64,000 bases of DNA from Cornus controversa (Eukaryota > Streptophyta > Magnoliopsida > Cornales > Cornaceae), in the NCBI GenBank assembly GCA_026545225.1, contig CM048846.1, positions 17,844,501 through 17,908,500 of the forward strand, written 5' to 3'. Position numbers and translations under genes: made by a program. The notes below the pieces were generated by a model. That model saw only the letters and a list, made by a program, of their open reading frames with translations, did not search any database and was not told the origin of the DNA. This document shows positions 4,079-44,120 of the stretch, piece by piece (position 1 is the stretch's first letter; the number at the start of each line of letters is the position of its first letter).

Positions 4079-4230
4079 TGCTCCTATATCACCCTTGTTC
4101 TGTATATATCTTCTTCTTCTTTTAATTTGCACATACACAAGTACATGGCTATTGCTAAATCAATCACACCTTCATTGTCTCTCTTTTGCCTTGTGCTTGT
4201 CACCTTCTTGGCTCTTCATGATCAATGTAA

Positions 4231-4294
<64 letters not shown>
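4231..4294. repeat. (TA)n microsatellite in the intron of G1
   Basis: About 60 bases of alternating TA directly after the splice donor. The introns of G3 and G8 have shorter TA tracts at the same place, so this is a lineage-specific expansion. It produces spurious open frames rich in Ile-Tyr on both strands. Confidence 0.95.
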
Positions 4295-4299
<5 letters not shown>

Positions 4300-4469
4300 C
4301 CTAATGCATTTTTTGTTGCCTTTCTTTTGTTTACTGGATTTGGCTGTGATTCTGATTTTTAATTTTCGATTCTGATCAGGCAGTGAAGCCAGAGCTGATG
4401 ATGTGGTCATTTCCGAGGTCAAAAATGCTATGATAGAAGAAAAGAAAACTTCTGAGACATGCATATATA

Positions 4470-6579
4470 TGTTGGATATGTGGCTCGAATTTATGGCACC
4501 GAAAGCCACCGAAAGAGAAGAAAATTAGGTGCCGATTTTTTGGACTTTCGTCTGCCAGAAGTAGCCGAACTTTTGGACTTGATATCCCTCTTTGTAGTAT
4601 ATATATACTTGATGTATATACTGTAAGATGAAGGCAAGAGATGTAGCATGGGGTGCACCACAGGGTATGCACAATCTGAGAGAAAATTTGTATCTGTTTT
4701 GTAACAATTTTCTCTATAGTGAATCATTGCCTCCCGTGGACGTAGGCAATTGCCGAACCACGTAAAATATCTGTGTATTTGTGTGTGTGGTGCTTTGTTT
4801 GTTAAATTTCTGGGCTCCAGGGCACAACAAATTGGTATCAAAGCCTTGGTTCAGAGCATTTTTCTCACTGCCTATAAATTTAAAGTGCTCAAACTTGAGT
4901 TTTGAGCATACTGGAGGGTAGATCTCGCCCATACGAGACCAACAGAACAAACCGGAGGTCAAACGGAGGTCGGAAGAGCCCTCACGCGCCACCAGAAGAA
5001 ATCGCGTGTAATGCACGCTTCCCACGCGCTCTCACGCGCCAGTAGTCTTAACGAAGCGTGAAATTCACGCGCTCACGTGCTCCAGAGGTAGAAGACAAGT
5101 GGAGGCCACGCGCCCACTCGCCCCCACACGCTGCACGCGCTTGTGCCGCATCAGAGCTGACTCAGCGAGTCTGGACCGAGTCGACTCGCTGACTCAGCAT
5201 TTGACTCATCTGCCACATCAGCCGATGGTGCCATGTGTCAGCCACGTGGCTTGACTTTTCCAAAAATTGCAATTCAGTCCTTGTTATTTTTGAAAATTTC
5301 AATTCTGCCCCTCTATTTTCTAAAAATTACAATTCTGCCCCTCAGTTTTTTGAAAATTTCAATTCAGCCCCTAATGTTTATGTAAATTACAATTCGGCCC
5401 CTAAAGTTCCTAGTATTTGCAATTTTGTCCCTGATGTTTCTAAAAATTGCAATTCTGCCTCTGAACATCTTGTTAATTGCAATTCAGTCCCAAAAGTTCC
5501 TATTAATTGCAATTCTGCCACTGAAGTTCCCATTAATTGCAATTCAGTCCCTGATTTTTCTAAAAATTGCAATTCTGCCTCTGAAGTTTTGATTAATTGC
5601 AATTCAGCCCTCTAAGTCCCTAAAAATTCACAATTCTGCCCCTAAACTTTCTGATTAGAATTGAAGTTTGTATTTGGGGTGGATTTAGCTATGTTTTATG
5701 GGATTTTGCGGTTGATTTACGGTAAATTTGTTTAATTTGGGCAGTGATCTGTCATGGTTCAAACACTGAGTATTTTTTGGTGTTTGGTTTGGACAACTTT
5801 GGCATGTGGCAATACAAAGTTTTGGATGTTCTGACTCAACAAAGTTGGTGATAGTCTTGGTGGGCTGTCATATTTGGTTTTATTGGGTTGATTTCAGAAA
5901 TCAATTTGTTTTGGGCCTCTATAGTGAATAGGCTGAATTTGAAGTTGGTTTGGGTCTTGTTTGAGTTGTGAGTTGGTCCAACATGGCTGATGGTTTGGGC
6001 TTTCCATAGGCAAGCAGAAAAAAAGGTCAAGTTCAGCACTGACATTCATCGTGGCGTCTAAGGGCGCATTGGAGGAGGCAACGTTGATTGGTCGTTTTTC
6101 ACCGAGGTGGAGAATGTTGATTGGTGGATTCCTGCCAAGTTGAAGAGCGTTCAGAATTTTCACCAAGGTGGAGATCGTTGATTGGTGAATTCTCGCAAAG
6201 GTGGAGATTGTTGGATATGTGGCTCGAATTTATGGCACCGAAAGCCACCGAAAGAGAAGAAAATTAGGTGCCGATTTTTTGGACTTTCGTCTGCCAAAAG
6301 TAGCCAAACTTTTGGACTTGATATCCCTCTTTGTAGTATATATATACTTGATGTATATACTGTAAGATGAAGGCAAGAGATGTAGCATGGGGTGTGCACC
6401 ACAGGGTATGCACAATCTGAGAGAAAATTTGTATCTGTTTTGTAACAATTTTCTCTATAGTGAATCATTGCCTCCCGTGGACGTAGGCAATTGCCGAACT
6501 ACGTAAAATATCTGTGTATTTGTGTGTGTGGTGCTTTGTGGTACTTTGTTTGTTGAATTTCTGGGCTCCCGGCACAACA
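4470..6579 (+). mobile_element. Short non-autonomous LTR element (TRIM/LARD-like) inserted in G1
   Basis: Two direct terminal repeats, 4470-4829 (360 bases) and 6209-6579 (371 bases), start TGTTGGATATG and end CACAACA. A 5-base target duplication ATATA lies on both sides (4465-4469 and 6580-6584). A primer-binding-like TGGTATCAAAGCC starts at 4833 and a purine-rich tract ends at 6208. The roughly 1.4-kb interior has no gag or pol, only GC-richer leader sequence (4900-5230) and a tandem array (5254-5640). The terminal repeats differ at only about 1-2% of positions plus a few small indels, so the insertion is recent, probably around a million years old or less. It is structurally whole but has no coding capacity. 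Confidence 0.88.
5254..5640 (+). repeat. ~30-base tandem array inside the LTR element
   Basis: About a dozen degenerate copies of a 27-33-base unit built on 'aattgcaattc(a/t)g(c/t)cc'. Because the unit is close to a multiple of three and free of stops, one frame stays open on each strand (5235-5615 plus, 5387-5602 minus) and reads as a repeated Asn-Ser-Ala pattern. I regard these as by-products of the array, not proteins. Confidence 0.8.
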
Positions 6580-6723
6580 ATATACTGAATTTTCATCTTG
6601 TGGGCTCGGATTTCAAAGTTGTTGGTGGTGCCGTAGCACCGATAAATACTATCCCACCAAACTATCAAGAGTCTTCGCAAATGCTTTTTCCTTGCCACCG
6701 GCACTATACATAATGTGCCATGA

Positions 6724-6800
6724 GTCGACATTTGTTTTCTTTGCTTCGATCGGATCTTCCTTCTTTTGCGTTGCAGCGATACAAATGTGATCGAAGAACT

Positions 6801-6843
<43 letters not shown>

Positions 6844-7161
6844 CCTGGAATATTAAAGAATATATAAAATATAAGTTCATTTTGTCATGAAGATACATTA
6901 TTATAATTCTGCATTTTAATTTTCCATATGTTTTGCACAATACTACTACACCAAAATATATATATATCTTATCATTTCTGCTCTACGTCCCTTGAATCAA
7001 ATTTCTGACTTTGCCCCTAGTCGTAAAAGGAATCAAAAGTGGTGTTAACACCTATACCATCTTTTCAACATCTCTCAAATTATTGTATTTAATAGTGTGC
7101 CTTTAATATGAAACAATTGTTTGTTACTTACCCAAAAAAAACAAATAGAATTTTTTTGTTT
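6724..7161. other. 3' flank of G1, no gene
   Basis: Contains the 3' flank shared with G3 (block near 6745-6780 matches 20625-20680), a (TA)n tract at about 6803-6840, and the start of the spacer block 'ggtgttaacacctat' that recurs at 9270, 13600 and 21865. No gene seen. Confidence 0.6.
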
Positions 7162-7170
7162 AATTTAAAA

Positions 7171-8396
7171 GGACAAAATGTACTCACACCCCCTAAGTTT
7201 GCCCTAAATATACTTATATACAAAGTTTGCTTAAACTTACACTTATACCCTTGAAGTTTCGAGTTTGACCGCACACAACCCCTAATTGAAATTCATCGGT
7301 CAAAAATTTATTTGAAATGTCTGTTTTACCGTTCACAAACTGAAAAGGCATTTTTAACTTTACTTTTTACGTTAAAATACCATATTGTTCCGAACTTTTC
7401 TTTTTCACTTGACAAAACTACCCTTATTACCTTATTATTTTTCTCCTCACTTTCTCTAATTCTTCCTCTCTCTCTCCTTTTTTTTTTCTCTCTCTTTCTC
7501 GAATCTGTCTCTCTACATCTAACCCTCTCTCTTTTCTTTATTTTATCTACTTCTCTCTCTTAATTCTTCACCCTTTTCTCTTTTTTCTTTTATTTTTTTT
7601 TCTCTTTTACCGTTTGTTATGGCAGTGCACATGAAAATTAGCAATGATAGCATGGTTTTGGTGGTGGCAATGGTGTCTCGGCAATAGTAGAAATGATGGC
7701 AATGCACGTGAAAATTAGCAATGATAGCATGGCTTTGGCGGTGGCAGTGGTGTCTCGGCAATAGTAGAGATGACAAAAGAGGAGACCTATATATATGAAG
7801 AATGTTACAAGAGTACATGAGTTTATTTGCAAATATGAGAAAGTTAAAAGAGGATATTTTGCATTTTGCCTTTTATTACAAAGTATACATATATTTATTT
7901 CAAAAAGGAAAAAAAAAAGTAGTGATGGCACTGATAAAATTGAAATAATAAAGTAAATTTTAGCCTCAAAGTTTGAATTTGTTTAGATTGAATTTTATTT
8001 TTCAGTGACAACTAATATTGGGTCATACACATAATAGAGAAATAATATAAATTATTTGTTAAATTGAATCACCAAAACACATTAGACTCATTTCTTTATT
8101 TCACAATTCTTTTTATAACTAAAAATTAAAACAAAAGAATACAAAGAATTTTGTTGCCCCTTCACTGAATTTAGGGGACACTAATATAGTAATATATCGA
8201 TTGAATGGTTAATTTAATTATTTTATTTTAATAGATTTTTTAAATATAATATAGTTATTATATTGATGGGTAAAATTATAATTTCCCATCAAATTATTGA
8301 TGCAATTTTGTTCAAGGGTGTGAATGTAAATTTAAACAAATTTTGTACATGAGTGTGTTTTAGGCAAATCTCAAAGGGTGTGAGTGCACTTTGCCG
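7171..8396. mobile_element. Non-autonomous Mutator-like (MULE) element, 9-base target duplication
   Basis: A 9-base duplication AATTTAAAA flanks it (7162-7170 and 8397-8405). The ends form long inverted repeats of roughly 95 bases. The left end runs GGACAAAATGTACTCACACC, and the right end read on the minus strand is CGGCAAAGTGCACTCACACC. The similarity continues inward through the ACACTTATACCCTTGAAG-type stretch. Long terminal inverted repeats with 9-base duplications are the Mutator signature. Paralogous spacers at about 13730 and 22000 have the same flanks joined without it. The interior holds a pyrimidine-rich stretch (7440-7610) and a 77-base tandem duplication, but no transposase. No captured host gene was recognised. 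Confidence 0.85.
7621..7774. repeat. 77-base tandem duplication inside the MULE
   Basis: Two adjacent copies (7621-7697 and 7698-7774) differ at only about half a dozen positions. Both include GCATGG(T/C)TTTGG and GTGTCTCGGCAATAGTAG. Confidence 0.85.
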
Positions 8397-8405
8397 AATT
8401 TAAAA

Positions 8406-10080
8406 TAACAATTCAGTACTTGAGGCTATAGTGAAATTTGTAACGGTCCACCATGTACCCTAACTATGTATCTGCAAAAAATCTATGAGGGCACTCTCAT
8501 TGAGCTTGCATTATCAATGATTGAATTGAGAGGCTACGAGGGATATAAACTCAATACAATAGTTAATAACATAGCATTCACGTGATAAAATTACTCTATA
8601 TTTGATTATAAGTCAAATTGGAGAGTCCGAACAACTTACATATTCTCTAGTTTGAAGGTTCTGTTCTTGCTAGTGATTAATCAAAATTATCTTTAGAATT
8701 TCATTAGAATTCCACTTTTCTCTACTCATATGTTGTTACTCATTTGAAGAATTAAAATGAATTGGACAAAAAGTAAATTATTGGGCCCGCTAAGGACCAA
8801 GGTTGTAAGGGTTTTATATTGCTCATACAATATTGAGAATTCCGAGAGCGTATTTCGGGATTAGGATTTGAGAGACCGGTAGATATTCTTTATTTCTTCG
8901 CATATTGAAATTCATTATGGATATACGTTGTAAGCTGAACCAAATTAAATCTATGTGTTTTGGATAGTGCTTGATTTTTCGTTTATGTTATTTCTTGATT
9001 ATTCTTTTATGCTTTTTAGTTATTTGTCGCAACATAAATCAGAAGTGTTAACTCTGGGCTTGGATTCTCTCCAAGTTTTTCTTTCTCCAAGCATCTCCAA
9101 ACAAAATTCGACCATTACAAATGTGTCATGTCATCACTTGTTCAACTACCGATCATGTATGGTCACATACACAACTTAATTCCTACAAAAAAAATTACAT
9201 GATTTGAATTTAATTGTCAGATCTTGCCTTAGAGGTGTTTGGAGAGAAAAACTAAAAGGAGGATCCCAATTCATTAACACCCATCCCATTTTTTCACCAT
9301 CTTTCAAACAATTGTATTTAGTAGTCTCCATTTAGTGTGAAACAATTATTTTTAATTACCAAAATAAATAAGTAAATAGAAATGATTTTTTTTTTGGGTT
9401 TAATTGGAATAACAACTCAATACTTGAGTGTTCAATAAAATTTGTCGCAGGTCCACCACATTTCCAACTATGTATCTCCAAATGTTAAAAATTTATTAGG
9501 AGGGCACTCTAATTGAGCTTACGTTATCAATGATTGGATTGAGAAGCTATGATGGGTATAAACTCAATCCAGAACATGGCATCCACGTGATAGAATTACT
9601 CCTCTATATTTGATTGTGAGCCAAATCCGAATAAAGTTAAAAATAATAATTTTATCCTCAAAATTGGTGCGTCCCAACCAGAGATAGATGGACCGTGGGG
9701 GTGTAGGGTCATACCTTCTGTTACATGATTCCGATGAATCACAAAAAGACAAAAAAAAATTTAATTTTTAATGACGGGTCTTTCGGTTGTTAGGTTTTTT
9801 TATACATTTTCTTAAATTATTTAAAATTTTTTGTCCGTTAAGTTTACTTAATCTCTATGCCTTTTTGTATTATTTATATAATTTAATACAATTTTTTATA
9901 TTTTTAACATTAGTGATCTGTAATAATTTTTCATGCATCACTACTCTAAAGTTAATATTTTTCTTCTCTTCTTATCGGTTGGTCCACCAACACAAATTTG
10001 TATCTCAAGATAGGAAAAGGAAGAGTTTATCATGGTTGAATCTTACTTGAGTTAGTACCTTTGGTCAAACGCCAACTTAT
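8406..10080. repeat. Two degenerate copies of the cluster spacer, no gene
   Basis: Two copies of the recurrent spacer block lie at about 8430-8640 and 9420-9640. Landmarks are 'ttgtcgcaggtccaccac', 'agggcactct', 'cactcaatcca', 'cacgtgatagaattact' and 'atatttgattgtgagccaaa'. The 8640-8760 part (TCTCTAGTTTGAAGGTTCTG onward) matches gene 3' flanks at 21487, 31980, 40450 and 60975. Open frames here are short and not conserved between copies. Confidence 0.65.
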
Positions 10081-10560: not shown

Positions 10561-10860
10561 AGTCAATTAGTGATGGGTTTCCCGAATACACGAAATCCCC
10601 CCTATTTAATAATTTCCCCTTTGGGACAGAAAGATTGTGAAATTGCTTTTGATCTAATGGTTGAGAATGTGAGTTCAAGATTAAAGTGCCTTTACAATGA
10701 ATTAATTAGCAATATTACTATAAATGAGAGTGAAGTAAGTTGCTTCATATTAATGAAGTTTGTTGTCCCATTTATATTAATAATGGGAAGGACCACTTCA
10801 CAAAGTTAGTTTTTTGTATCCTCATTAATGTTTGATTCGGTATTAAAATTCAAGTTGTAG

Positions 10861-11707: not shown

Positions 11708-12141
11708 ATGGCTATTGCTAAATCAATTACACCTTCATTGGCTCTCTTTTGCCTTGTGCTTGTCACCTTATTGGCTCTTCATGAATGTAAGTATTGTAAG
11801 TATATATATATACAAGCCTAATGCATTTTTTGTTGCCTTTCTTTAATTTGTTTATTGGATTTGGCTGTGATTAATTCTGACTCTTAATTTCTTACATTTT
11901 GCTTCTATTTCTTATGAAAATCTCTCCATCACATGATCGATCAAGCAGTGAAGCCAGAGCTGATCATGTGGGTATTTCCGAGCTCAAAAATGCTATGACA
12001 GAAGAAAAGATTACTTCTGAGAGATGCATGGAGTCTTCATCTTGTGGGCCCGGATTTAAAAGCTGTTGGTGGTGCCTGGCAACAACAGTTTCTATCCCAC
12101 CAAAAAATCTTGTAACCGCAACTGCTTATAGGTCGCCATGA
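11708..12141 (+). pseudogene. G2: ESF1-like secreted peptide gene, decayed
   Basis: Exon 1 (11708-11786) is intact and encodes the signal peptide ending LLALHE plus one base, followed by GTAAGT. The splice acceptor that the other copies use (ATCAG before GCAGTGAA) reads ATCAA here. The nearest AG lies one base further on, so splicing there would shift the frame. Exon 2 in the family frame (about 11945-12141) still spells SEARADHVGISELKNAM, a C-x5-C start and SCWWC, but the three or four cysteines after CWWC are all replaced before TGA at 12139-12141. A second donor (11796) keeps the same phase and does not restore the frame. The promoter block is present, so a transcript is still possible. 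Confidence 0.75.
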
Positions 12142-15380: not shown

Positions 15381-16650
15381 TTGTAATTCGAAATCTTCTG
15401 TGTCAAAACTAAACATAATCGAGTTGCTATATTTTATTTATATTCTTGTAATTGAAGTCTCAGAGTGAGCATGAAGTTCTACACTAACTATGTAAATGAT
15501 TTTCAATGTATGAAGCTTGAATCTTCGGAATAAGACATTAATGATCTGAACAAAGAGTTGATCGATTGAAGTTTTTGGATGTTTTCAATTACATGAGGAC
15601 ATCGTTGATCAAGTATGGGAATCACGTAGTCCAGGTAAAGTGGTGAAAACACATATATTTCAAACCAGGTGGTTCCGGCCTTGCAAAATAGGGATTTTGA
15701 GCTATTTTTCAAAACTTACAAGGTTAGACCAGTCCAAGGTTTAGATGGACCGGTCCATGAGCTCTCGGTATCTCAAACCAAGACCTCAGCAAGGCTTTAC
15801 CAATCCAAGTGAAGACTGGATCGGTCCAAGCCTTTTGGTCTAGCCTTTTTGTCTTCCTTAATCCGGTTTTGACTCTGAAATTTTTTTAAACTTTGGGACT
15901 TGTCTCTTATTGATTTTTAACTTATTTTTCAAGAAAAATTGAAAATTTTAACATCTATAAAAACCTCAGATGATTTCTCTCTCGGTGTGCTTTCACAAAA
16001 TTTTCAATTCGCATCAAAAATATTATTTTTAAAAAGAGAAAACGTTGAGATATTTTTTAACAGAGAACTTTATTTTTCTATTTATATTTTTGAGAGCACA
16101 CACATATTCACTGATTGATTTAGGTTGGCTATCTTTGCTTGATCAATTTTTTAAAGACTACTTCAAAGATTTCTTATTGATGAAGTTATTGGATTGGTTT
16201 CTTCTACAACTGTTCATTGGTGAGGAAGGAGAAGAAGATCACACTATAAAAGGGACATAATACTTGCTAAATTTTTGTGTTCTTTCAGTTAGCCTTTTGT
16301 AAGGATTGTGACATTCGCTAGGAGTCTACAACAATTAGATAAGGGAGTCACAATAGTAAGCTTGAAGCATTCCACATCAAATTATTGTCAGAGTGCAATG
16401 GGTGTGAGCCTGGGACAGAGTCTGTTGTACTTTACTTTGACGACAGTGGATTTGGTTCTCCGGGGTTACAAAACCTCACTAGTATTTTTTTTTCGATATG
16501 AGTTTTTCATGTATATCTGGTGTATTCATTTACTTTATTTTATTTATTTGCTTTGTGGGATTACGTAAATTTTAATTGGAGTTAAAATTGGAAGATTTGA
16601 AAAATTAAGCAAAAAACGAGTAAACCTAATTACCCCCTCTATTTTTGTAA
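15381..16650 (+). repeat. LTR-like repeat unit B
   Basis: Same 1.25-kb repeat as unit A, directly followed head-to-tail by unit C. It carries GTCAAAACTAAACATAATCG at the left, the paired 'accagtccaagg'/'accggtccatg' motifs near 15725-15760, the AGGAGAAGAAGATCACACTA motif near 16227, and a C-rich end near 16630. No gag or pol is found between B and C. Tandem LTRs of this kind can arise by unequal recombination between elements. Confidence 0.45.
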
Positions 16651-17925
16651 TTGGCAATATTTAGTGTCAAAACTAAACATGATCGAATTGTTATATTTTA
16701 TTTATATTCTTATAATTGATCATATAATTGAAGTCTCAGAGTGAGCATGAAGTTCTACACCAACAATGTAAATGTTTTTCAAGTTTGAATCTTCAGAAGA
16801 AGACATCAATAATCTGAATAAAAAGTTGATCAATTGAAGTTTTCAGATAGTTCCGATTGCTTGAGAACATCATTGATCAAATATGAGAGTCACATAGTCT
16901 TGGTAAAGTGGTGAGAACATATATATTTCAAACTAGGTGGTTCTAACCTTACAAAATAGAGGTTTTGAGTTATTTTTCAAAAATTACAAAGTTGGACCAT
17001 TCCAAGGTCTAGTCCATGAGGTCTTGGTATCTCAAACCAAGACCTCTGCAAGGCTATACTGCTCCAAGTGAAGGTTGGACTAGTCCAAGCCTTCTAGTCT
17101 AGCGTTTTTGCCTTCCCTAAATCTATTTTGACCCGAATTTAATTCTGAAATTTTCTTAAACTTTGGAACTTGTTTCCTATTGATTTTTAATTTGTTTTTC
17201 AAGAAAAATTAGAGTTTTTAATATCTATAAAAACTTTATATGATTTCTCTCTTTGTGTTCTTCCACGAAACTTTCAATATGCATCAAAAATATTATTTTT
17301 AGAAAGAGAAAGCATTAAGATATTTTTCAATAGAGAACTTTTTTTTCTGTTTTTATTTTTGAGAGTACACACATATTCACTGAGTGATTTAGGTTGGCTC
17401 TCTTTACTTGATTAATCGTTTGAAGATTGCTTCAAAGATTTCTTATTGATCAAGCTACTGGATTGGTTTCTTCTACAACTATTCGTTGGTGAGGAAGGAG
17501 AAGAAGATCGCACTACGAAAAAACAAAATACTTGCTAAGTGTTCGTGTTCTTCCAGTTACCATTCTGTAAGAATTGTGACGTTAGCCAGGAATCTACAAC
17601 AATTGGACAAGGGAGTCGCAATTGTAAGCCTGAGACGTTCCACATCAAGTTCTTGTCAGAGTGGAGTAGGTGTGAGTCTGGGACAAAGTCTATTGTACTT
17701 AGATTTGATGATAGTGGATTGGGTTCTTCGGGGCTACAAAGCCTCACTCGTGATTTTTTTTCGATTTGGGTTTTTCATGTATATCTGATGCATTCATTTA
17801 CTTTATTACACTTTATTTTATTTACTTACTTTGTGTGATTGCTTAGATTTTAATTGGACTTAAAATTTGATAATATAAAAGGTTAAGCAAAAAAGCGAAC
17901 AAATCTAATCACCTCCCTCTAGGTT
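16651..17925 (+). repeat. LTR-like repeat unit C
   Basis: Second tandem unit. It aligns with unit A more closely than with B (for example AGGAGAAGAAGATCGCACTA at 17498 and 1105). This fits A and C being the two products of the large segmental duplication. Confidence 0.45.
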
Positions 17926-20091
17926 TTAAATCTAATTTTCGCAACTACTTCCGCACCGTGCAACTCACATAATAAATGTGTCAGCTTTATTAAAAATTGC
18001 TTCATGCAAATTGCTCTTTATTGTATATGATGATGTCAGAATTTTTTAAAAATTCAAAAATACTCTTTTTGTCTTTTCACGTTTTGCATTTTCTTAAAAT
18101 AAAAAAAAAATTTATAAAGTAAGAATACTTTAGTCTGTTCATTGTAATTTTCTTCCAAACTGAAAATTTGTTTTTATTTACATAGATTGAAAAATGTAAG
18201 AGGTTTTGCAGACAAGATGAGTCTTTGCACATTTTCTACACACTGAAGGGTGTTTTTTTGCAATTTACCTTGAATAAAACAACTAGGAAAGCCTCAGCTA
18301 AACCACACCAGTTGCAATCTTGTCATAGCCTCTCCTCCAGCAAATGGTGCACAAACACCATAAATCTGCTTTCGTTGTATCCTAAGTTCCTTTTATTCCA
18401 CTGCTATACAAATATGCATGAGATTAAGTGGAAACATTCATATGCACCATGTCATTTATATATATATATATATAAAAGAAATTAATCCTCCTGAAGAGTA
18501 CTTTAACTTGTCTAAATGAGATATCTATCCCTTTTTAAGAATCCACTATACAATAACAAATCAACACTTGGCCCAGAATAAAATTTGTCACAGGTCCACC
18601 ACATCCTACTTGTGTATCTCTAAATTTTGAAATGGCATCCTCAATACTCCTCTATATTTGATTGTGAGCCAAATCTTCGTAAAGTTAAGATAAATGATTT
18701 TCTCTCCCAAATTCGGAGATTGTATCATCACCTCTAAAGTTAATATTTTCCTTTTCTTCTTCGGTTAAGATATATATACAGCTTTATTAAGGTATTCTTA
18801 TTACTATTTGATTATGAAAATCCAAGCATTTAACTTCTTTCCATACCTAGAAGATTGATTAATCCTTATAAAAATTCTTTAATTGTGATGAAACAATATT
18901 TTCATGAAAAAATTTATTTTAGTGACATCTCTTTATTCATCACAATTGAAGTATTCATTTGTAACAATTTTGGAGTGTCATAAATACTTTTTATTTGTGA
19001 CAGTTAATTCTCGTTACTTATAATGTACTACTAATTATGACATTATTTTACCATCACAAATACTTTTTATCTGTGACGCCAAATTTTCGTTACCTATAAT
19101 AAATTATTTGTGACATTATTTTACATCACAAATTCCATCTTTGTCTTTTTCCTCCCCTATCCAATTTTGATCTCTACCAATACTATTTGTAATTTTATTT
19201 TTTTGGTTCTAAACAGTACTCTATCATCACAAATTCATAAATATTTTTTTCTAACTAAAGACTAATAATCAGTTGCATTGTTGGGTCTCTACTAATGCTA
19301 TTCCCAATATTATATACATATTAAATACGATAAGTATCTTAGACAAAAATACCATTTTCACATATTTCATCATCTTTTCTCTACGTGTGTGTATATATAT
19401 ATATATATATTTCTTTGTTTCCTTCCACTAATATTAGATATGGCTAATATTTTAAAAACAAGTTGTATTCCAATTTTTTGGTAACTATTTGAATATATTC
19501 TGAAACTTTGTTGAAGAAGATTAGGGTTGTTCTGATAATGGATTTAGATGGAGAGAGAAAAAGATGATTAATGGTGGAGAGAGTGGGAGTACTTATTGGT
19601 TGAAAAAAGAGAGAACAAATTCTGAAAATTTAAAAGTATTTTAGTCAAAAAAAAAAAAAAATTATACTTTTAATGTCCTCCAATAACTAAACCACATTAA
19701 TGATGGATTGAAAGTCGTGTTAAATTAGTCATAACATTACTCATAAAGTTAATATTTTTCTTTTCTTCTTATTGGTCGGTGCACCACAAACACAATTTTG
19801 TATCTCCAGATAGGAAAAGTTTTATGGTAATCTCACTTGACTAACCTTCCCATTCGAGATTGTGAAACTGATTTTCATCCAATGGTTGACAATGTGAGTT
19901 GAAGATGAAAGTGCCTTTACAACGAGTTAAGTTGCCTCATATATTAATGAAGCTTCTTGTCCCATGTATATTAATAGGAAGGGCCACTTCCATTCACCAA
20001 ACTAGGTTTTTGTATCCTCATTAATTTTTGAGTTTAAAAATCCAGGTTGTATTACGAGTTAATATATATGCCAATTAACTCGTAATTAATT
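17926..20091. other. Duplicated spacer upstream of G3, no gene
   Basis: Counterpart of 1531-4017. It has an extra segment at about 19311-19690 that the first copy lacks (an insertion here or a deletion there), and it lacks the hAT MITE of the first copy: the single CATTAATG is at 19695-19702. No coding region. Confidence 0.7.
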
Positions 20092-20216: not shown

Positions 20217-20601
20217 ATGGCTATTGCTAAATCAATCACACCTTCGTTGGCTCTCTTTTGCCTTGTGCTTGTCACCTTCTTGGCTCTTCATGATCAATGT
20301 AAGTGTATATATATATATATGCCTAATGCATTTTTTGTTGCCTTTCTTTTGTTTACTGGATTTGGCTGTGATTCTGATTTTTAATTTTCGATTCTGATCA
20401 GGCAGTGAAGCCAGAGCTGATGATGTGGGCATTTCCGATGTAAAAAATGCTATGACAGAAGAAATCAAAACTTCTGAGAAATGCATATATATAACGTCAT
20501 CTTGTGGTTCCGGATTTCCAAGTTGTTGGTTGTGCAGTTGCAACAAGGATGACTATCCCACCAAACTATCTTGTCTTCGCAACTGCCATTGTGAGCCATG
20601 A
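20217..20601 (+). CDS. G3: secreted cysteine-rich peptide, ESF1-like, intact (eight-cysteine type)
   Basis: The gene model joins 20217-20298 and 20402-20601, giving 93 residues. Exon 1 gives an N-terminal Met, a Lys at position 5 and a hydrophobic core (LALFCLVLVTFLALH), and ends in phase 1 at GTAAGT. The acceptor is GATCAG. The split codon makes Cys28. Residues 28-33 (CSEARA) fit a signal-peptidase site, so the product should be secreted. The mature part has an acidic or polar linker (about 34-54). The domain has cysteines spaced C-x6-C-x6-C-x2-C-x-C-x9-C-x3-C-x-C, with the core SCWLCSC and the stop directly after CHCEP. There is no proline tail, unlike G4, G6 and G7. The CWxC core followed by C-x3-C suggests the ESF1-like family of plant signalling peptides. 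An unrelated cysteine-rich antimicrobial-type peptide cannot be excluded. Supported by TATA box, canonical splice sites and open frame. Confidence 0.75.
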
Positions 20602-26548: not shown

Positions 26549-27045
26549 TCCCTTCGGGGTCACTTAGTTCTGTTGGAACACTTTATTATCCTTTTGGGAG
26601 TCCTTTAGTTCCGTTGGAATAATTTATCGTTCCTTCGAAGTCCCTTAATTCCATTGGAACACTATATCATCCCTTCGGGGTCACTTTGTTCCGTTGGAAT
26701 ACTTTATTGTCCCTTCGGTGTCCCTTTGTTTCTTTAGAACACTTTATCATCCACTTTATTGTCCCTTCGGGTCCCTTAGTTCTGTTGGAACACTTTATCG
26801 TCACTTCGGGGCCACTTAGTACCTTTGGAACATTTTATCGTCCCTTCGTGGTTACTTAGTTCCGTTGAAACATTTTATTATCCCTTTGGGGTCACTTAGT
26901 TTTGTTAGAACACTTCCCTTCGGGGTCACTTAGTTCATTTGGAACAATTTTCATCCCTCGAGATAACTTAGTTCCGTTAGAACACTTTATCGTCTTTTCA
27001 AGGTAACTTAGTTTCATTGGAACACTTTATTAGTCATTTTCGGAT
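26549..27045. repeat. ~40-base tandem array inside the old LTR element
   Basis: About twelve degenerate copies of a unit built on CCCTTCGGGGTCACTTAG followed by TTCCGTTGGAACACTTTAT. Copies differ freely, so the array is old. The units are contiguous with no unique spacers. Confidence 0.85.
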
Positions 27046-27199
27046 ACTTTTTTTTTCGGTCAGGTAAATAACCTTTGACTTCTGCCAATCATGGTTTTCT
27101 TCAAAAGCTTCAAGGCGAACACAGTAACCATTCTAGAAAGAGAGAACAATGTCATGTAGAAAAGAACTACACTAAATATCCCACTGGTGGGTTGTTTTG

Positions 27200-31235: not shown

Positions 31236-31291
31236 CCTTGCTGCTACATCACCCTTGTTCGATCTCTACCTGTTCTTCATTGCGCAAACAC

Positions 31292-31722
31292 ATGGCTATT
31301 GCTAAATCAACCACACCTTCATTGGCTCTCTTGTGCCTTGTGCTTGTCACCCTCTTGGTTCTTCATCAATGTAAGTATGCCCAATGCATTTTTTGTTGCC
31401 TTTCTTTTGTTTACTGAATTTGGCTGTGATTCTGATTCTTAATTTCTTACATTTCTTCTATTTCTTATGAAAATCTTTCACATTATCAGGCAGTAAAGCC
31501 AGAGCTGATTTGGGCTTTTCCGAGCTAACAGTTCCCATGAGAAGGGGCTCTGATGAGAAAATTATATCCGATAGGTGTGTCCTGTTTTCGGTGTCCAAGT
31601 TTGGAAGTTGTTGGCGTTGCGTTCGCAGCCCTGAAAAAGGATGCTTTCCCAGCGAACAATCTTGTCTTGACTTCTGCCCTCCCTTGCCATCGCCGCCGCC
31701 ACATAGTGCTCAAACACCTTGA
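31292..31722 (+). CDS. G4: secreted cysteine-rich peptide with proline tail, ESF1-like, intact
   Basis: The model joins 31292-31370 and 31490-31722, giving 103 residues. Exon 1 encodes the signal peptide ending LLVLHQ. The intron has GTAAGT and TATCAG, and the split codon makes Cys27. The predicted cleavage region is CSKARAD. The mature peptide has a basic/acidic linker, then cysteines spaced C-x10-C-x2-C-x7-C-x6-C-x3-C with the core GSCWRC and KGCFP, and a tail with short proline runs ending HSAQTP. Six domain cysteines fit three disulfides. It is nearly identical to G6 over both exons and the intron, so the two arose by recent duplication or gene conversion. It has a TATA box and the promoter block, and is probably expressed. 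Function is unknown beyond likely secretion. Confidence 0.75.
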
Positions 31723-32686
31723 AACATTTATTTTCTTTGCTTCCTAGCTCTCTTCCTTTGCTCTGCTATACAAATGTGGCGAATTGAAAGCGTTTATATT
31801 GGTATGGAAAAAAGAATAAAATACAGTTCATTCTCTCGTGAAGATACATTATGATTTTGCATTTAAATTTCGAATTGCTACTTAAAAATTTAACTTGCTA
31901 CTGATTAAATCGAAAAAAATACTAGTTTTTTCGACTACTTCTGTCAGTGAATTTTTGAAATTTAACATGTTACATATTTCTCTAGTTTGAAGGTTCTATT
32001 TGTACATGATCAAGGTAAGAATTGCTTCATTGTTTCAAAAAAATATGACAGAAGATGGTGGTAAAAAGAAAACATCATGCAGGCAAAGGCATGGCTTGAT
32101 CAAATCTCAATCCCTGGACTACAATGTCATGGACCTGAATTTTTGTTTTCAATTAATTTCCTCAAATCTATACTGAATAAACATGCATTAATTTTACTTG
32201 TATGCGAGACTATCGCTTTTGGACCTCTTGTTCTCATAATACTTCATTTTCTTATGAGCATTGAGATGTGACGAAATTCCTCCTTCATATAATTATAAGA
32301 ACTGAGGATTTCTTGAATTGGAGCCCTCTCTCCTCATTATTAATGGTGAACATTCACATATTCGATAATTCGCACCTCTTACTATATTGTTCTCATAACA
32401 CTTCCTTTTTCTTTTTCATTTTTTCTTTTTTAAATAAAAAAACCACTGTGGACTTCATTGATTTCATAAAAAAAAATTCCTGAACTTTCATTTTTACACA
32501 AAATTCCCCTATACTATTCCAAAATTAGGCGGATACCGGGTACCACTCTTTCGTTTGCGGGCTCTTAGAATAGTGATAAAAAAAATTGACATTTTTTAAC
32601 CTAAAATCTCTATAATTCCCTTCTTTATTGATTAAAATTACATATCATCATTTTTAAATCCATGAATCAACCTCTAATGTAAATGG

Positions 32687-36011: not shown

Positions 36012-36404
36012 ATGGCTATTGCTAAATCAATCACACTTTCATTGGCTCTCTATTGCCTTATGTTTGTCACCCTCTTGGCTCTTCATCAATATAAGTATGC
36101 CCAATGCATATTTTAATTTGTTGCCTTCGTTTTGTTCACTAGATTTGGCTGTGATTCTGATTCTTTCTTTCATTTGGCTTCTAATTCTTATTAAAATCTT
36201 TCACATGACCAGGCAGTGAAGCCAGAGCTGATGTGGGCATTTCCGAGCTCAAAGATCCTATGACAGGAGGCTCTAATGAAAAGATTATTTACTGAAAATG
36301 CGTCCAGTTTCCATCTGAGGTCAAACGTTGTTGGCGTTGCGTTCCCAACCCTGGAGTACGATGCCATTCCGTTTCCACCGTCACCTAGTGCTTAAACGCC
36401 TTGA
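36012..36404 (+). pseudogene. G5: ESF1-like secreted peptide gene, decayed
   Basis: Exon 1 (36012-36090) encodes the family signal peptide (ends LALHQ), but the splice donor reads ATAAGT instead of GTAAGT. Exon 2 from 36213 starts CSEARADVGISELKDPM in the family frame and meets a TGA about 30 codons in, just before the first domain cysteine. The sequence beyond still encodes a KC, a RCWRC core and VPNPG in the same frame before further decay. The family stop would be near 36404. Two independent lesions (donor and nonsense) make it a pseudogene. It is closest to G7 and G6 in the linker and CWRC region. Confidence 0.8.
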
Positions 36405-37616: not shown

Positions 37617-38130
37617 TTGATACCTCTTATTCGATCGAATTGCGCGCGCGCGCTCTCTCTCTCTCTCTCTCTCTCGTTTTCTTTAGACAGAGCTTGCTTT
37701 GAAGCTCTCTTCACGGCAAGAAATGGAGATGGCAACTCTCGTTCGCATGCCATTATGTCCAGTGTTCATGAGGTACACACTTTTTTTCTATCCAAAAGCC
37801 TAACTTTAAACCCTAATACAAAACCCACTTTCCCAAATTTACTCATCTCAGACTTTTCGCGAACACTCTGCAAAATCTCTCCATGTTAACACCTTCAAAC
37901 TCTCGTCGCCTTTCTCAATCACGCCCTCGAAACCCTTCGAAAACAAATCGATCTGTTGTGCATACGATTGTAAGGTTGATCGGATCGAACTTGCAGGGGA
38001 TGTCGGGTTGTCCGAGTCGAAGGTGCCGCCGGAGCAGTTGGCGGAGGAGACTGTGTGTTCGAAGTAGAGTGGGAGGCAGTCGGCGACGGAGCAGGTGGCG
38101 CCAGAGTTGAGTTTTCTTGAAGAATTCTTC
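37617..38130 (+). pseudogene. Possible fragment of a host gene (5' region), function unknown
   Basis: A GC-richer island in AT-rich surroundings. It has a (CG)n/(CT)n leader-like tract (37643-37676), an ATGGAGATGGCAACTCTCGT-type possible start near 37722, and a C-rich stretch 37860-37950. It continues with 38000-38110 (GTGCCGCCGGAGCAGTTGGC region) that can be read in one frame as an acidic stretch containing KVPPEQLAEE. No single frame stays open throughout and no splice structure is clear, so I take it as a truncated or captured piece of a nuclear gene, perhaps one with a transit peptide. I do not recognise the parent. The long minus-strand open frame over it (37919-38689) is a TA-repeat artefact. 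Confidence 0.3.
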
Positions 38131-39630: not shown

Positions 39631-39672
<42 letters not shown>

Positions 39673-39712
39673 AATAACAACTCAACACTACTTGCTAGTT
39701 GCTGCTACATCA
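38131..39712. other. TA/TG-rich spacer, no gene
   Basis: 38200-38660 is dominated by TATA/TGTG simple sequence, with two copies of a CAGTCATGCATATGCACATATAAT-type block (near 38560 and 38630). 38820-38940 is GA-rich. 39545-39690 is a fragment of the recurrent spacer ('ctctcaaattattgtattta') with a (TA)n tract at 39638-39671. That spacer then joins directly to the G6 leader. Confidence 0.5.
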
Positions 39713-39752
39713 CCCTTGTTCGATCTCTACCTGTTCTTCATTGCGCAAACAC

Positions 39753-40209
39753 ATGGCTATTGCTAAATCAACCACACCTTCATTGGCTCTCTTTTGCCTT
39801 GTTCTTGTCACCCTCTTGGCTCTTCATCATCAATGTAAGTATGCCCAATGCATTTTTTGTTGCCTTTCTTTTGTTTACTGAATTTGGCTGTGATTCTGAT
39901 TCTTAATTTCTTACATTTTGCTTCTATTTCTTATGAAAATCTTTCGCATTATCAGGCAGTGAAGCCAGAGCTGATTTGGGCATTTCCGAGCTAAAAATTC
40001 CCATGAGAATGGGCTCTGATGAGAGAATTATATCCGATAGGTGTGTCCTGTTTTCGGTGTCCAAGTTTGGAAGTTGTTGGCGTTGCGTTCCCAGCCCTGA
40101 AAAAGGATGCTTTCCCTGCAAACAATCTTGTCTTGACTTCTGCCCTCCCTTGCCATCGCCGCCGCCGCCGCCGCCGCCGCCGCAGCCACATAGTGCTCAA
40201 ACACCTTGA
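39753..40209 (+). CDS. G6: secreted cysteine-rich peptide with long polyproline tail, ESF1-like
   Basis: The model joins 39753-39834 and 39956-40209, giving 111 residues. The signal peptide ends LLALHHQ. The intron has GTAAGT and TATCAG. The split codon gives Cys28, followed by SEARAD. The domain matches G4 (C-x10-CWRC core, KGCFP, C-x3-C) with one extra cysteine (FPCKQ instead of FPSEQ), giving an odd seventh domain cysteine. A CCG trinucleotide tract (40156-40182) lengthens the proline run to eight before QPHSAQTP. Coding sequence and splice sites are intact. The upstream sequence does not contain the GTTAACCTGTCACA/TATAAAA block: the match to G4 stops at about 39690-39700, so a deletion joined spacer to leader. 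Expression is therefore doubtful unless another promoter is used. Confidence 0.7.
40156..40182 (+). repeat. (CCG)n trinucleotide tract in G6 coding sequence
   Basis: Adds prolines to the C-terminal tail relative to G4 and G7, without changing frame. It is a likely site of length polymorphism. Confidence 0.9.
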
Positions 40210-41540
40210 AACATTTATTTTCTTTGCTTCCCAGCTCTCTTCCTTCTTTTGCACTGCGATACAAATGTGAAGAACTGTAAGCATTTATATCATCAGCCTG
40301 GGATACAGAATAATATACAGTTGATTCTGTCACGAAGATACATTATGATTTTGTGCATTTTTTGAAATTTTGTTAGATCCTCGTCGGAAGAGGTATGTCA
40401 ATCTATCTACGTAAGAGAAACAAAGGAAAATCCACCAGTTTTGCATATTCTCTAGTTTGAAGGTTCTATTCTTGGTAACCCAATTTCAGTTTTATGATAA
40501 TAGTGAAGAAATTATAGAATATCCAGAAAATATTAACTGTTCAAATATTGGGCTTAGCTATGGCTCTCTAAAACTCTTTCCAATGTTTTTGTTGGCTTTC
40601 GGCCCTTTTGATTTTGAAATGTTTGGGCTTGTCCTCCCAAGCCCTCTCAATTACTGAACTCTGTAATTATTTTACACTAGTTTAAGCAAGAGAATTTTGA
40701 ATATTATTAATCCATGAATGAATTATCTGTTCTCGTAGTACATATATATATATATATATATATAATGGAGAAAACCTAACAACATAAGAAAATATTACAA
40801 CCAAAAGCTAAAAATAGGTTGAAATTACTATTTCTATAAATTGAGAAAAAAATAGGACACAGTAAAAACTACTAAATATAAAAAAAAAATCATAAGAATT
40901 CGAATCTGTTTAGATCTGCCAACAAAAATCTTAAATCAGGCAATAAACGATAGAATTTAGCTGGAAAACATGGTTTGCCTGATTCCAGTCAAAAAAGAAT
41001 CTTTTCAGATCAAAATGACTTGTCGAAACTGTTCTAAAAATGTGTTAGGTCACTCGCTTGACCTTCCGGTGATCTCATTGCCAACCCGTTCTATATCACA
41101 AAGGGGATAAAGAATCAATTTTGGGTCTGCTTCTACATATAAGCATGTACATCTAAAAAGTTCACATTTTAAATATTCACCAATTTTGCCAAATTCTATA
41201 AGGCTTTGTTTTTACTTTCTTTCTTTTTTGTACTACGGAAAGACAAAAAACAAAAAATAATTTATTGACACTTAAATAAAATTTGATATTTTTTAATTTC
41301 CTTATAGGTTCAAGATTCCCTAGTAGATTCTAGGATTTCTCCTTATAAAGACTAGCAATATTACCATAAATGAGAGTTAAATCTTAGTGGAGTATCCCTG
41401 TACATCAAGAAAGTTATCCCATATTAATGGGAAGGACCATTTCATAAAGTTAGTATTTTACGTTTTTTTTTACTCATTAATGTTTGATTGTGAATTAAAA
41501 TCCAAGCATTTAATTTCTTTTCTATGTTATTTATTAGCAT
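40210..41540. other. 3' flank of G6 and upstream spacer of G7, no gene
   Basis: Contains the family 3' flank (CACGAAGATACATTATGATT near 40332), a (TA)n tract at 40741-40764, and AT-rich sequence. From about 41350 ('agcaatattaccataaatgagag') it carries the promoter-proximal spacer shared with G2 and G4. No gene recognised. Confidence 0.5.
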
Positions 41541-41592
41541 GGTGATGTTAACCTGTCACAAAAGGTTGAATCCTTATAAAGTCCAGGTAAAC
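41541..41592 (+). promoter_or_regulatory. Conserved promoter block of G7
   Basis: GTTAACCTGTCACAAA, GGTTGAATCC and TATAAAG at 41575-41581, 67 bases upstream of the G7 start codon. Confidence 0.7.
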
Positions 41593-41647
41593 CTTGCTGC
41601 AATATCACACTTGTTCTCTATCTCTTCTTCTTTTGCACATACACAAC

Positions 41648-42062
41648 ATGGCTATTACTAAATCAATCACACCTTCATTGGCTCTCTTTTGCCTTGTGCT
41701 TGTCACCCTCTTCGCTGTTCATCAATGTAAGTATGCCAAATGCATTTGTTGTTGCCTTACTTTTGTTTACTATATTTGGCTGTGATTCTGATTCTTAGTT
41801 TCATACAATTTGCTTCTATTTCTTGTGAAAATGTTTCACATGATCAGGCAGAGCTAATGTGGGCATTTCCGAGCTCGAAGATCATATGACAAGGGGCTCT
41901 AATGAAAAGATTTTTTCCAGAAAATGCTCCGAGAATGGAAGTTGCTGGCGTTGCGTTCCCTACCCAGCAATAGGATGTTTTCCCAGCGAAGAAATTTGTC
42001 TTGAATTCTGCGAACCCTTGCCACCGCCGCCGCCAGCACAACCTAGCGCTCAAACGCCGTAG
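41648..42062 (+). CDS. G7: secreted cysteine-rich peptide with proline tail, ESF1-like, intact
   Basis: The model joins 41648-41726 and 41848-42062, giving 97 residues. The signal peptide starts MAITKS and ends LFAVHQ. The intron has GTAAGT and GATCAG. The split codon gives Cys27 followed by RANVG: three codons (SEA) present in sister copies are absent, so the usual cleavage region is shortened. The linker is ISELEDHMTRGSNEK. The domain is C-x5-C-x2-C-x7-C-x6-C-x3-C with core GSCWRC and IGCFP, and the tail PPPPPAQPSAQTP precedes TAG. It has six domain cysteines, all paired in principle. The spacing between the first two cysteines is shorter than in G4 and G6. Promoter block and TATA box are present, so a functional gene is likely. 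Confidence 0.75.
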
Positions 42063-43162
42063 AAACATTTTTTCTCTTTGCTTCCTTAGATCTCTTGCTT
42101 CTTTTGCACTACAATACAATGTGAAATACTGAAAGAATTTATATCATCGAATAAAGAATAACATGCCGTTCATTCTGTCAGGAAGATACATTATGTTTCT
42201 GAATTTATATTTTTGCATTGCTACTTGAAAATTTAACATGTTAATGACTAGATTGACAAAAAAATATGCATTTTCAAAATTTTGTTAGATCCTTCCGTGA
42301 AGAGGGATATGAATCCATTTGACAAGAGAGGTAAAATCGATCAGCTTTTGCGCAACATCAACCCCTTTGACAAGTAAATGATAAGATATGTTACGAAAAT
42401 TAACCCTAAAAAAAACACACATGCAAGAACGCTGTGGTTCACCTAAAATTTGGATTACGTTTACCGAATTGATCGAATCATCGAGATTTCACTATAATAA
42501 AAAGCAAAATGAATTACAAAGTTCAGAATGATTTTGTACTGCTCTTCGCTGTACTCTTACAAAATGAGGAATACATATATAATAAATATGAAAATACCAA
42601 AATAAGCATGCATGCATGCACAGAGTATTACCTCAAAAGTTCACATTCTTTGCATGGCTGATTTTTTTAATGACCATTTTTATTACTTCAGAGAACTTTA
42701 GAGTGTTGAAAGATTAAACATACAGAAGCATATTGGTAAGATATCTACAAGAAGGTCCCAAATCTCACACGTGTGGTAAGATACAGAAGCATATAGAAGT
42801 ATTTTGGTCATATAGCTTGTAAGGGCATTTTGGTCATATAGAGTTAAAAGAATCTCACACGTCTCTCACGTGAATATGTTCCGTTACTGTTTGACATTAA
42901 ATTGACAGATTGGAGGCATATTGATTGTGTGAAATTTTGAATTCATAGGAGTTTCATGAGATTTAAGTACCATAAAGGGGTTATATGATTAAAATTTATA
43001 ATATAGTGTTTCTTTTATGAATTAACCCCTTAAAAAAAACAGACCAGCAATATTACTGGTAACGGTCATTTCAAAATTAAAATTAGTGTTTTACGTCTTT
43101 TCCTCTTTGGATAAGATTAAGGTCTCCTTATTAATGTTTGATTCTAATTAAAATCCATGCAT
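42063..43162. other. 3' flank of G7 and upstream spacer of G8, no gene
   Basis: Family 3' flank near 42180 (AGGAAGATACATTATG) and shared 'ttgttagatcct' block near 42285. A small direct repeat occurs around 42730-42850 ('ggtaagatacagaagcata', 'ttttggtcatata' twice). From about 43045 there is promoter-proximal spacer. No gene recognised. Confidence 0.5.
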
Positions 43163-43222
43163 TTCAATGTTAACCTGTCACAAATTAAAGGTTGAATCCT
43201 TGTAAAATCCAGGTAAACCTTG
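43163..43222 (+). promoter_or_regulatory. Promoter block of G8, TATA degraded
   Basis: GTTAACCTGTCACA and GGTTGAATCC are present, but the TATA position reads TTGTAAAA. The following leader matches the other copies up to about 43278 and is then separated from the G8 start codon by a 323-base insertion. Confidence 0.6.
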
Positions 43223-43278
43223 CTTCTATATCATCACCCTTGTTCTCTATCTCCTCTTCTTCTTTTGCACATTCACAA

Positions 43279-43601
43279 TGTTAGTACAAAAAAATGTTTG
43301 GCTAATTTTATCAAACCAATTTGTTGCACACACTCAGATATTAAAAAGTATTCTTTATTTTTTGAAAAAAGATGACCCTTTCTCGTTAACCCTTTCTTCT
43401 ATTTATACAAGTTTGAAACTTGAATCATTTTAGAACTCAAATTTCTTTATTTATAATGGCTAAGCTGGGCCATTTAGTCTTCTTTAGGAGACCCGGCCCA
43501 CTTCTTTTTAAATTGTTCCTTGGGGCTCTCTTGCTTTTCTTCTAAACTTGGGCTCAATCTTTTCCTGGATTCAGCCTGTTTGTGCTTTAGTAAGCCCAAC
43601 A
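43279..43601. mobile_element. Insertion in the 5' leader of G8, LTR-like ends
   Basis: Compared with G7, the leader CACATTCACAA is broken here and resumes with the start codon. The inserted sequence begins TGTTAGTAC and ends AAGCCCAACA, an inverted TGTT(A/G)G/C(T/C)AACA pair as in solo LTRs, and has a TATA-like TTTATACAAG near 43403. I find no clean 5-base target duplication, so the class is uncertain. The A of the G8 start codon is the last base of the inserted segment, so the insertion abuts the ATG. Confidence 0.5.
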
Positions 43602-43686
43602 TGGCTATTGCTAAATCAATCACACCTTCATTGGCTCTCCTTTGCCTTGTGCTTGTCACCTTCTTTGCTCTTCATGGATGTAAGTA

Positions 43687-43726
<40 letters not shown>

Positions 43727-44120
43727 TAATGCATTTTTTGTTGCCTTACTTTTGTTTACTGTATTTAGCTCAGGTTCTGATCCTTTCTTTTTGCAAATCT
43801 TTGACATGAAAAGGTAGTGAAACCACGGAAGTTGGTGTGGGCTTTTCGGAGCTCAAAAATCATATGATAGGGGCTCTAAAGTAATGATCGTTTCAAAAAA
43901 ACCATGTGTCAAGAAATTAGAATGCAAGGATGAAAATTGTTGGTGTTGCTCTACAAACTCCAAAATAGGATGCTTGCCCAAAGAAGATTGTCAGAAACTC
44001 TGCCCGGTTACCTCCTCCAACGAGTGCTCAAACGCCATGAAACAATGGCTTTCCTTGCTTCCTCGATCTCTTCCTTCTTCTTCTTCTTCTTCTTCTTCGC
44101 TGCAATACAAATGTGTATGA
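43601..44120 (+). pseudogene. G8: ESF1-like secreted peptide gene (CWCC type), frame broken or alternatively spliced
   Basis: Exon 1 (43601-43679) is intact, with the signal peptide ending FFALHG. The donor is GTAAGT and the family acceptor AAAAG is at 43813. From there the frame reads CSETTEVGVGFSELKNHM and then meets TAA at 43882, because one base is missing relative to sister copies. The cysteine domain is open in another frame (43884-44120). It has the most ESF1-like pattern of the cluster, KKPC-x5-C-x5-CWCC-x6-C-x5-C-x3-CP. An alternative acceptor at 43851 (TTTTCGGAG) would join exon 1 in phase to that frame, so a secreted product is possible. After CPV the frame also differs from sister copies, adding a long Ser-rich tail. 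The promoter TATA is degraded and the leader is interrupted, so expression is doubtful. Confidence 0.6.

Follow-up and report, generated by a model that had tools for sequence, protein, structure and literature searches.

We describe 11 or more tandemly arrayed genes, predicted from the sequence to encode small secreted cysteine-rich peptides, on contig CM048846.1 (C2) of the Cornus controversa assembly GCA_026545225.1. Eight of these genes (G1 to G8) lie in the 64,000-nucleotide stretch analyzed here (C2:17844501-17908500, hereafter the window), and unprefixed positions refer to that stretch. We consider it probable that the array is a derived branch of the Meg/ESF1/PCP-B signaling peptides and that its products are secreted, disulfide-held cell-surface ligands, most likely reproductive ones. 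The sequence shows that exon 1 supplies a putative signal peptide and exon 2 a short linker followed by a cysteine domain of ~30 to 40 residues around C-W-x-C, to which exon 2 of G4, G6, and G7 adds a proline-rich tail. By analogy with the family, we posit that the precursor would be secreted, cleaved, and disulfide stabilized, that the mature peptide would function as a ligand at the cell surface, with reproductive tissue the most likely site, and that the aromatic residue that follows the third cysteine would serve as a contact, as in ESF1 and PCP-B. The array itself grew by duplication; insertions, altered splice sites, and frameshifts cost it several copies, and gene conversion moved sequence between copies.

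The initial annotation, made from the window alone, placed eight same-strand copies with a common exon-intron structure between 4145 and 44120, and the copies are where it put them. All belong to one repeat family (D2), with starts at 4143, 11706, 20215, 31290, 36010, 39754, 41646, and 43599 and ATGs at 4145, 11708, 20217, 31292, 36012, 39753, 41648, and 43601; they run head to tail on the plus strand in the order G1 to G8, span 4145 to ~44.2 kb, and are linked to one another by self-BLAST of the window (E<=1e-20). Each has an exon 1 of 79 to 82 bp, an intron of 103 to 159 bp that interrupts a Cys codon, and an exon 2. Exon 1, which diverges by 2.4 to 11.4% across all 28 pairs, yields a product resembling MAIAKSITPSLALFCLVLVTFLALHDQ, a putative signal peptide judged by eye from its hydrophobic core; the exon 2 product is a linker (e.g., SEARADDVGISDVKNAM) and then the cysteine domain. 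The array nevertheless reaches farther than first drawn, since three more copies (U1 to U3) lie upstream, for a total of at least 11 copies in 80 kb. The layout of two exons and one intron holds for the eight window copies, U1, and U3, while U2 consists of exon 1 only. In a DNA search of the genome (772 Mb, 61 contigs) with the exon 1-intron block of G7, the 12 matches listed represent 11 copies, G1 being hit twice, and none of those listed falls outside the cluster (these counts are lower bounds).

Four of the window copies are open (G3, G4, G6, and G7) and four are broken (G1, G2, G5, and G8), just as annotated. Counting the upstream copies, 5 of the 11 are open and 6 are broken or truncated, which bears out the proposed birth-and-death family, with gene conversion acting too. 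The promoter, which had been described as common to the eight, is less uniform: a block (ATGTTAACC ... CTTATAAA) between -75 and -152 keeps its position in six, has been separated from the ATG by an insert in G8, and is missing upstream of G6, where an (AT)n tract occupies its place. Thus, G6, though open, has lost the ancestral promoter. Based on an open frame together with a promoter, G3, G4, and G7 are the best candidates for working genes; G6 is doubtful because of its promoter, as is U3, which has lost a core cysteine.

The core motifs reported earlier (CWLCSC in G3, CWRC in G4 to G7, CWCC in G8, and CWWC in G1 and G2) were all found as described. We aligned ten domains (those of G1 to G8, U1, and U3), which fixes the cysteine columns most firmly at C3, C5, C7, and C8 and less firmly at C1 and C2. 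The residue directly after C3 is aromatic in all ten (W in nine, Y in U1). G8 is nearly canonical, with the spacing C-x5-C-x4-CWCC-x7-C-x5-C-x3-C, compared with C-x6-C-x4-CYCC-x7-C-x6-C-x3-C in maize MEG14. Most of the others depart from eight cysteines: beside the canonical eight of G8, G3 has eight at other places, G6 has seven, G4, G7, and U1 have six each, and U3 has five. G4 (CWRC-x7-C-x6-C-x3-C) and G7 keep C1, C3, and C5 to C8 and lack C2 and C4; C4 and C6 are missing from G3, U1, and U3, and two new cysteines appear in G3. By these patterns, the cluster is predicted to be a derived branch in which two subclades lost different cysteines.

Which family does this branch derive from? The initial annotation called the peptides ESF1-like, and the evidence supports the wider Meg/ESF1 label, Meg more firmly than ESF1. 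Meg (PF24153) is the best Pfam match of all five open full-length proteins, with E values of 0.003 (G3), 0.0029 (G7), 0.026 (G6), 0.037 (G4), and 2.5e-4 (U3), in listings that mostly omit matches above E ~0.1. The signal peptide evidently supplies part of these scores, given that the mature parts alone give no such match; among eight mature pieces run against Pfam, only that of G8 matched Meg (E 0.77). When the mature part was shuffled with the signal peptide and cysteines kept, none of eight sequences matched Meg, and one of two full shuffles did so (E 8.4). Because the signal peptide contributes, the mature domains were tested together as a profile. A profile of the ten domains ranked maize MEG14 (7dab) first among 177,635 Protein Data Bank (PDB) sequences (E 4e-4, the next at 0.31), and for a profile of five copies MEG14 was the sole PDB sequence found (E 0.027). 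Two permuted control profiles did not recover MEG14 from the PDB sequences, the cysteine columns being well aligned in the first only and the second poorly realigned. In hhalign, the array profile scored 80% against a 41-residue stretch of MEG14 and the first permuted profile 3.8%. The failure of the permuted profiles indicates that positions other than the cysteines matter for the MEG14 match.

A second line of evidence comes from a canonical relative on contig C1. A search of the genome with the Meg profile gave no match at E<=0.001 and, at E<=10, one match of weight, C1:107222471-107222644 (L044, E 0.0087), followed by L045 (E 3.9) and L046 (E 8.6). The L044 gene looks intact and has two exons; its putative signal peptide ends in SHE, and the intron falls in the next Cys codon, as in the array. 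Its pattern, C-x4-C-x4-CWCC-x7-C-x6-C-x3-C, has eight cysteines and the CXCC motif. Spliced, it scores 30.8 bits against Meg, above the curated Pfam cut-off of 27 bits, and ESF1 (PF18209) comes second at 19.7 bits (E 1e-3), under its cut-off of 24.1 bits. L044 aligns to the array profile at 93.6% in hhalign and to G4 over 24 residues at 42% identity in a pairwise BLAST (E 7e-5, a single comparison); its domain, searched in the genome, finds G7 as the only other place (E 0.78). Since L044 shares the layout, passes the Meg cut-off, and matches the array profile, a derived Meg/ESF1/PCP-B branch is the best interpretation of the array.

The ESF1 profile itself was rejected as a direct label. It is absent from the Pfam matches of the window proteins and U3, and a genome search with it gave four places, none in the cluster; the frames at L040 and L043 look helicase-like by eye, and L041 sits amid retroelement-like frames, also by eye. 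Two weak protein matches, L007 (E 4.6) and L039 (E 0.56), do not resemble cysteine-rich secreted peptides and were set aside.

Several findings weigh against this interpretation. The Meg scores of the five open copies are 14.7 to 21.7 bits, and none reaches the curated cut-off; without the signal peptide, none of the four open mature domains run singly matches Meg. The CXCC motif is present in 1 of 10 domains (that of G8, which is out of frame), and C4 is missing in the other 9. In PDB searches with single sequences, full-length G3 finds no Meg and G8 ranks MEG14 fifth (E 3.5), and the predicted structure of G8, which shows a short helix near C7-C8, is poor (pLDDT 61.8). The selection signal is likewise mixed: in pairs of G3, G4, G6, and G7 other than G4-G6, dN/dS is 0.35 to 1.08 for the cysteine domain and 0.57 to 1.23 for the whole coding sequence, and exon 1 gives 0.49 to 1.80, with one pair having no silent change.

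Maize Meg genes have two coding exons and one intron and have duplicated locally, some copies having decayed or lacking a promoter (PMC4236715), all of which recurs in the array. The C5-x7-C6-x6-C7-x3-C8 spacing of Meg is shared by G4 and G7, and G8 has a near-full pattern. In contrast to the CYCC of maize Meg, 9 of 10 array domains have CWxC or CYWC; the array domains also have fewer or moved cysteines, G4, G6, and G7 add the proline-rich tail, and Meg (CRP5420, PF24153), though their best profile match, stays under the Pfam cut-off. The Meg/Ae1 supergroup is marked by a CXCC motif, and Meg and ESF1 reportedly lack any detectable sequence similarity apart from the cysteine pattern (PMC4236715). 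Trp-48 of Arabidopsis ESF1.3 is an aromatic, functionally essential residue, and PCP-B gamma has Tyr-45 beside Cys-44 (PMC5215366); we equate this aromatic position with the W after C3 of the array. The ESF1 profile is silent on the window copies and is the second match of L044. The superfamily fold combines a helix and a three-stranded sheet with conserved disulfides (PMC5215366). The PCP-B pollen coat proteins, kin of ESF1, duplicate frequently and diverge fast around their cysteines (PMC5215366), a pattern that the array resembles. The Arabidopsis PCP-B pattern, CX4CX7-8CXCCX6-8CX6CX3C (PMC9856046), has a C2-C3 loop of 7 to 8 residues, unlike the loop of 4 in G8, which is as in Meg, and PCP-B-like proteins of Arabidopsis carry seven or eight cysteines (PMC5215366), as opposed to six in G4 and G7. 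The endosperm transfer layer is where Meg1 acts, ESF1 takes part in the development of the suspensor (PMC4236715), and PCP-B vies with RALF for ANJEA-FERONIA (PMC12786044). A family-aimed literature search (titles and abstract beginnings, with subscription journals mostly outside it) returned no account of the array or of six-cysteine Meg relatives.

How do the copies evolve? The 5' half (promoter, exon 1, and intron) is conserved or homogenized, and every class of site in exon 2 shows greater divergence. Between the 5' leader and a point shortly beyond the stop, 13 of 507 positions distinguish G4 from G6, followed by 23 of the next 118 (p 9e-10), which identifies a gene-conversion tract of ~507 bp. 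For the remaining pairs of G3, G4, G6, and G7, exon 1 dS is 0 to 0.10 and intron divergence 0.09 to 0.18, with 0.21 to 0.28 for the 3' untranslated region (UTR) and a dS of 0.43 to 0.78 for the cysteine domain. The 5'-half tree and the exon 2 tree both join G4 with G6 and U1 with G2 and differ only at the weakly supported G8 and G5; thus, they add no proof of conversion. We did not use the exon 2 rows of G1, which are joined across an inserted element, or the G4-G6 exon 2 count of 20/226, in which the proline repeat is misaligned, and all p values for selection and divergence are given without multiple-testing correction. There is no need to invoke hypermutation of the cysteine domain, given that divergence in the 3' UTR, too, is higher than in the intron (0.21 to 0.29 versus 0.01 to 0.10 among G4, G6, and G7). 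A retroposition origin of G6 was rejected because the intron is retained and the 3' UTR is homologous.

The description of a conserved secretion signal attached to diverging mature peptides therefore stands as a description, but the whole 5' half is uniform, and selection is not proven by it. Exon 1 changes are few and not mainly silent, and the likeness of the signal peptides is thus better put down to a 5' half that has changed little overall than to clear constraint on the protein; with the silent sites of exon 2 diverging too, the contrast between the halves is by itself no proof of selection. The cysteine domain offers modest support for purifying selection, and exon 1 shows no silent excess. 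In the cysteine domain, G6 and G7 differ at 18/106 amino-acid and 12/32 silent sites (p 0.026) and G4 and G7 at 16/100 and 9/29 (p 0.11; rounded counts in both), and comparisons of G3 with the others give dN/dS of 0.75 to 1.08. In the dead pair U1-G2, exon 2 (13/224) diverges like the intron (11/157, p 0.67), unlike in G4-G7 (42/202 versus 11/119, p 0.008) and G6-G7 (p 0.001); U3-G3 is borderline (p 0.06), with an exon 2 dN/dS of 0.52.

Could the mature domain instead be under diversifying selection, in an arms race of recognition or parental conflict? This idea, which is compatible with the derived-branch reading, we hold only tentatively. Of the coding differences inside the G4-G6 tract, 11 are nonsynonymous and 1 is silent, with 1 difference in the intron and none in the leader (11/235 amino-acid-changing sites versus 2/247 for silent sites, intron, and 5' leader combined, p 0.010), and both lineages contribute (6 substitutions on G4, 7 on G6); the excess of exon 2 over intron divergence in G4-G7 and G6-G7, with U3-G3 falling short, points the same way. 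However, 11 to 1 is too few for a ratio, the cysteine-domain dN/dS of the other pairs is 0.35 to 1.08, and amino-acid sites in U3-G3 show no excess over the intron (p 0.33). Exon 2 silent sites also exceed the intron, and much of the contrast is thus accounted for by a 5' half that is homogenized or constrained. An apparent excess of change could also arise by piecemeal conversion from other copies, and the numbers are small and the tests several. Positive selection is thus suggested by G4-G6 and not demonstrated in general.

We also speculate, while regarding it as unlikely, that the scaffold was rewired. From the canonical eight-cysteine Meg/ESF1 pattern, which one gene on another contig still carries, C4 would have been dropped except in G8, followed by either C2 (G4 to G7) or C6 (G1 to G3, U1, and U3), with two cysteines added in G3 and a proline tail in G4, G6, and G7; conversion would keep the secretion module uniform, and the resulting peptides would be alternative ligands for co-evolving reproductive receptors.

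A defense or antimicrobial array (defensin-like, albumin I, or another knottin) driven by pathogens, with convergent cysteine spacing, seems very unlikely to us. Defense-peptide families typically form tandem arrays with a conserved signal peptide and a variable mature domain, which counts in favor of this idea, as do the extra cysteines of G3, which are unlike Meg. In tomato, moreover, two MEG-like genes are down-regulated, one upon Fusarium infection and one by elicitors (PMC8198727), and a link to defense is thus possible even inside the Meg family. Nevertheless, neither defensin, albumin I, nor any other plant cysteine-rich peptide family is among the listed Pfam hits of the full-length or mature forms, the MEG14 match depends on non-cysteine positions, and the canonical gene on C1 has the same layout and exceeds the Meg cut-off. 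About as improbable is that the array is a decaying relic with no working copy, its open frames owed to recent conversion or chance: the 6 of 11 broken or truncated copies, the lost G6 promoter, the lost U3 core cysteine, the cysteine-domain dN/dS of 0.75 to 1.08 between G3 and the others, and amino-acid change equal to silent change in exon 1 would fit, but G3, G4, and G7 retain promoter, splice sites, and frame, the G6-G7 cysteine domain (with G4-G7 at p 0.11) has proportionally fewer amino-acid than silent changes, and exon 2 diverges like the intron in the dead pair but not in G4-G7.

The features of the derived array and its relatives are collected in Table 1.

Table 1. Copies of the array, their lesions, and associated features (window positions unless a contig is named)
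Feature	Position	Strand	Remark
U1	C2:17840361		upstream copy, frameshift
U2	C2:17839304		upstream copy, exon 1 alone
U3	C2:17807991		upstream copy, open, third cysteine lost, 3' end differs from other copies
G1 exon 1	4145..4226	+	putative signal peptide
G1 exon 2, 5' of inserted element	4380..4469	+	
LTR retroelement within G1 exon 2	4470..6579	+	~2.1 kb
G1 exon 2, 3' of element	6585..6720	+	CWWC, end approximate
G2 exon 1	11708..11786	+	
G2 exon 2	11946..12133	+	broken, CWWC, end approximate
G3 exon 1	20217..20298	+	
G3 exon 2	20402..20601	+	open, CWLCSC, 93-aa precursor
G4 exon 1	31292..31370	+	
G4 exon 2	31490..31722	+	open, CWRC, proline-rich tail, 103-aa precursor
G4 side of G4-G6 gene-conversion tract	31238..31744	+	
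G5 exon 1	36012..36090	+	donor GT->AT
G5 exon 2	36213..36380	+	broken, end approximate, in-frame TGA, cysteine end gone
G6 exon 1	39753..39834	+	no ancestral promoter upstream
G6 exon 2	39956..40209	+	open, CWRC, longest proline tail, 111-aa precursor
G6 side of G4-G6 gene-conversion tract	39699..40231	+	
G7 exon 1	41648..41726	+	
G7 exon 2	41848..42062	+	open, CWRC, proline-rich tail, 97-aa precursor
G8 promoter / 5' leader block	43050..43278	+	variant TATA, displaced
Insert separating G8 leader from ATG	43279..43597	+	~320 bp
G8 exon 1	43601..43679	+	
G8 cysteine domain	43866..44018	+	eight cysteines, CWCC, open yet out of frame with exon 1
L044 gene	positions 1251-1701 of the L044 locus, contig C1		read by eye

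The element in G1 carries long terminal repeats (LTRs) at 4470-4829 (360 bp) and 6209-6579 (371 bp), which differ by 5 substitutions in ~360 aligned positions, and is flanked by a 5-bp target duplication, ATATA (4465-4469 and 6580-6584); on both counts, the insertion looks recent. Just after the 5' LTR lies what we take to be a primer site like tRNA-iMet. The sole listed frame of at least 120 aa in the element (126 aa) runs over a 30-bp periodic repeat at 5252-5640, of which 11 copies are listed. G2 has an acceptor moved by one base and a second, later frameshift. In G8, a frameshift precedes the cysteine domain and the frame is restored behind it; it is remotely conceivable that a cryptic acceptor near 43851, derived by hand and unscored, could bring the domain into frame. 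The proline-codon repeat differs in length among the tails of G4 (31680-31720), G6 (40144-40206, the longest), and G7 (42012-42059), a change that looks like triplet slippage, and our guess is that the tail might anchor the peptide in the cell wall.

Around the genes, a segmental duplication (1-2949 and 16391-19308, 88% identity), built of ~1.27-kb tandem units, lies upstream of both G1 and G3, which suggests duplication of a ~16-kb block as the origin of that pair. An array of ~40-bp tandem units occupies 26549-27055, and copia-type fragments with RVT_2 and Pol_BBD profiles occur at 47676-48041 and 49505-50407 (plus strand) and at 57281-57670 and 58806-59237 (minus strand). Downstream of the array, Pfam profiles identify a G-alpha domain frame (L027:6902-7525, plus) and a cytochrome P450 frame (L028:8923-9600, minus). 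A further flanking frame (L026:4045-5493, plus) has no Pfam hit and resembles the front of an extra-large G protein. These three frames are useful for synteny.

Peptides of the Meg, ESF1, and PCP-B types take part in the flow of nutrients to the seed, in patterning of the early embryo, and in the hydration of pollen. A single genome that holds a canonical gene, above the cut-off for Meg and below that for ESF1, beside a derived array with reduced cysteines helps to link Meg and ESF1. L044 is the obvious candidate for functional work, and, together, the array and L044 provide natural material to test which disulfides, and which aromatic contact, function requires.

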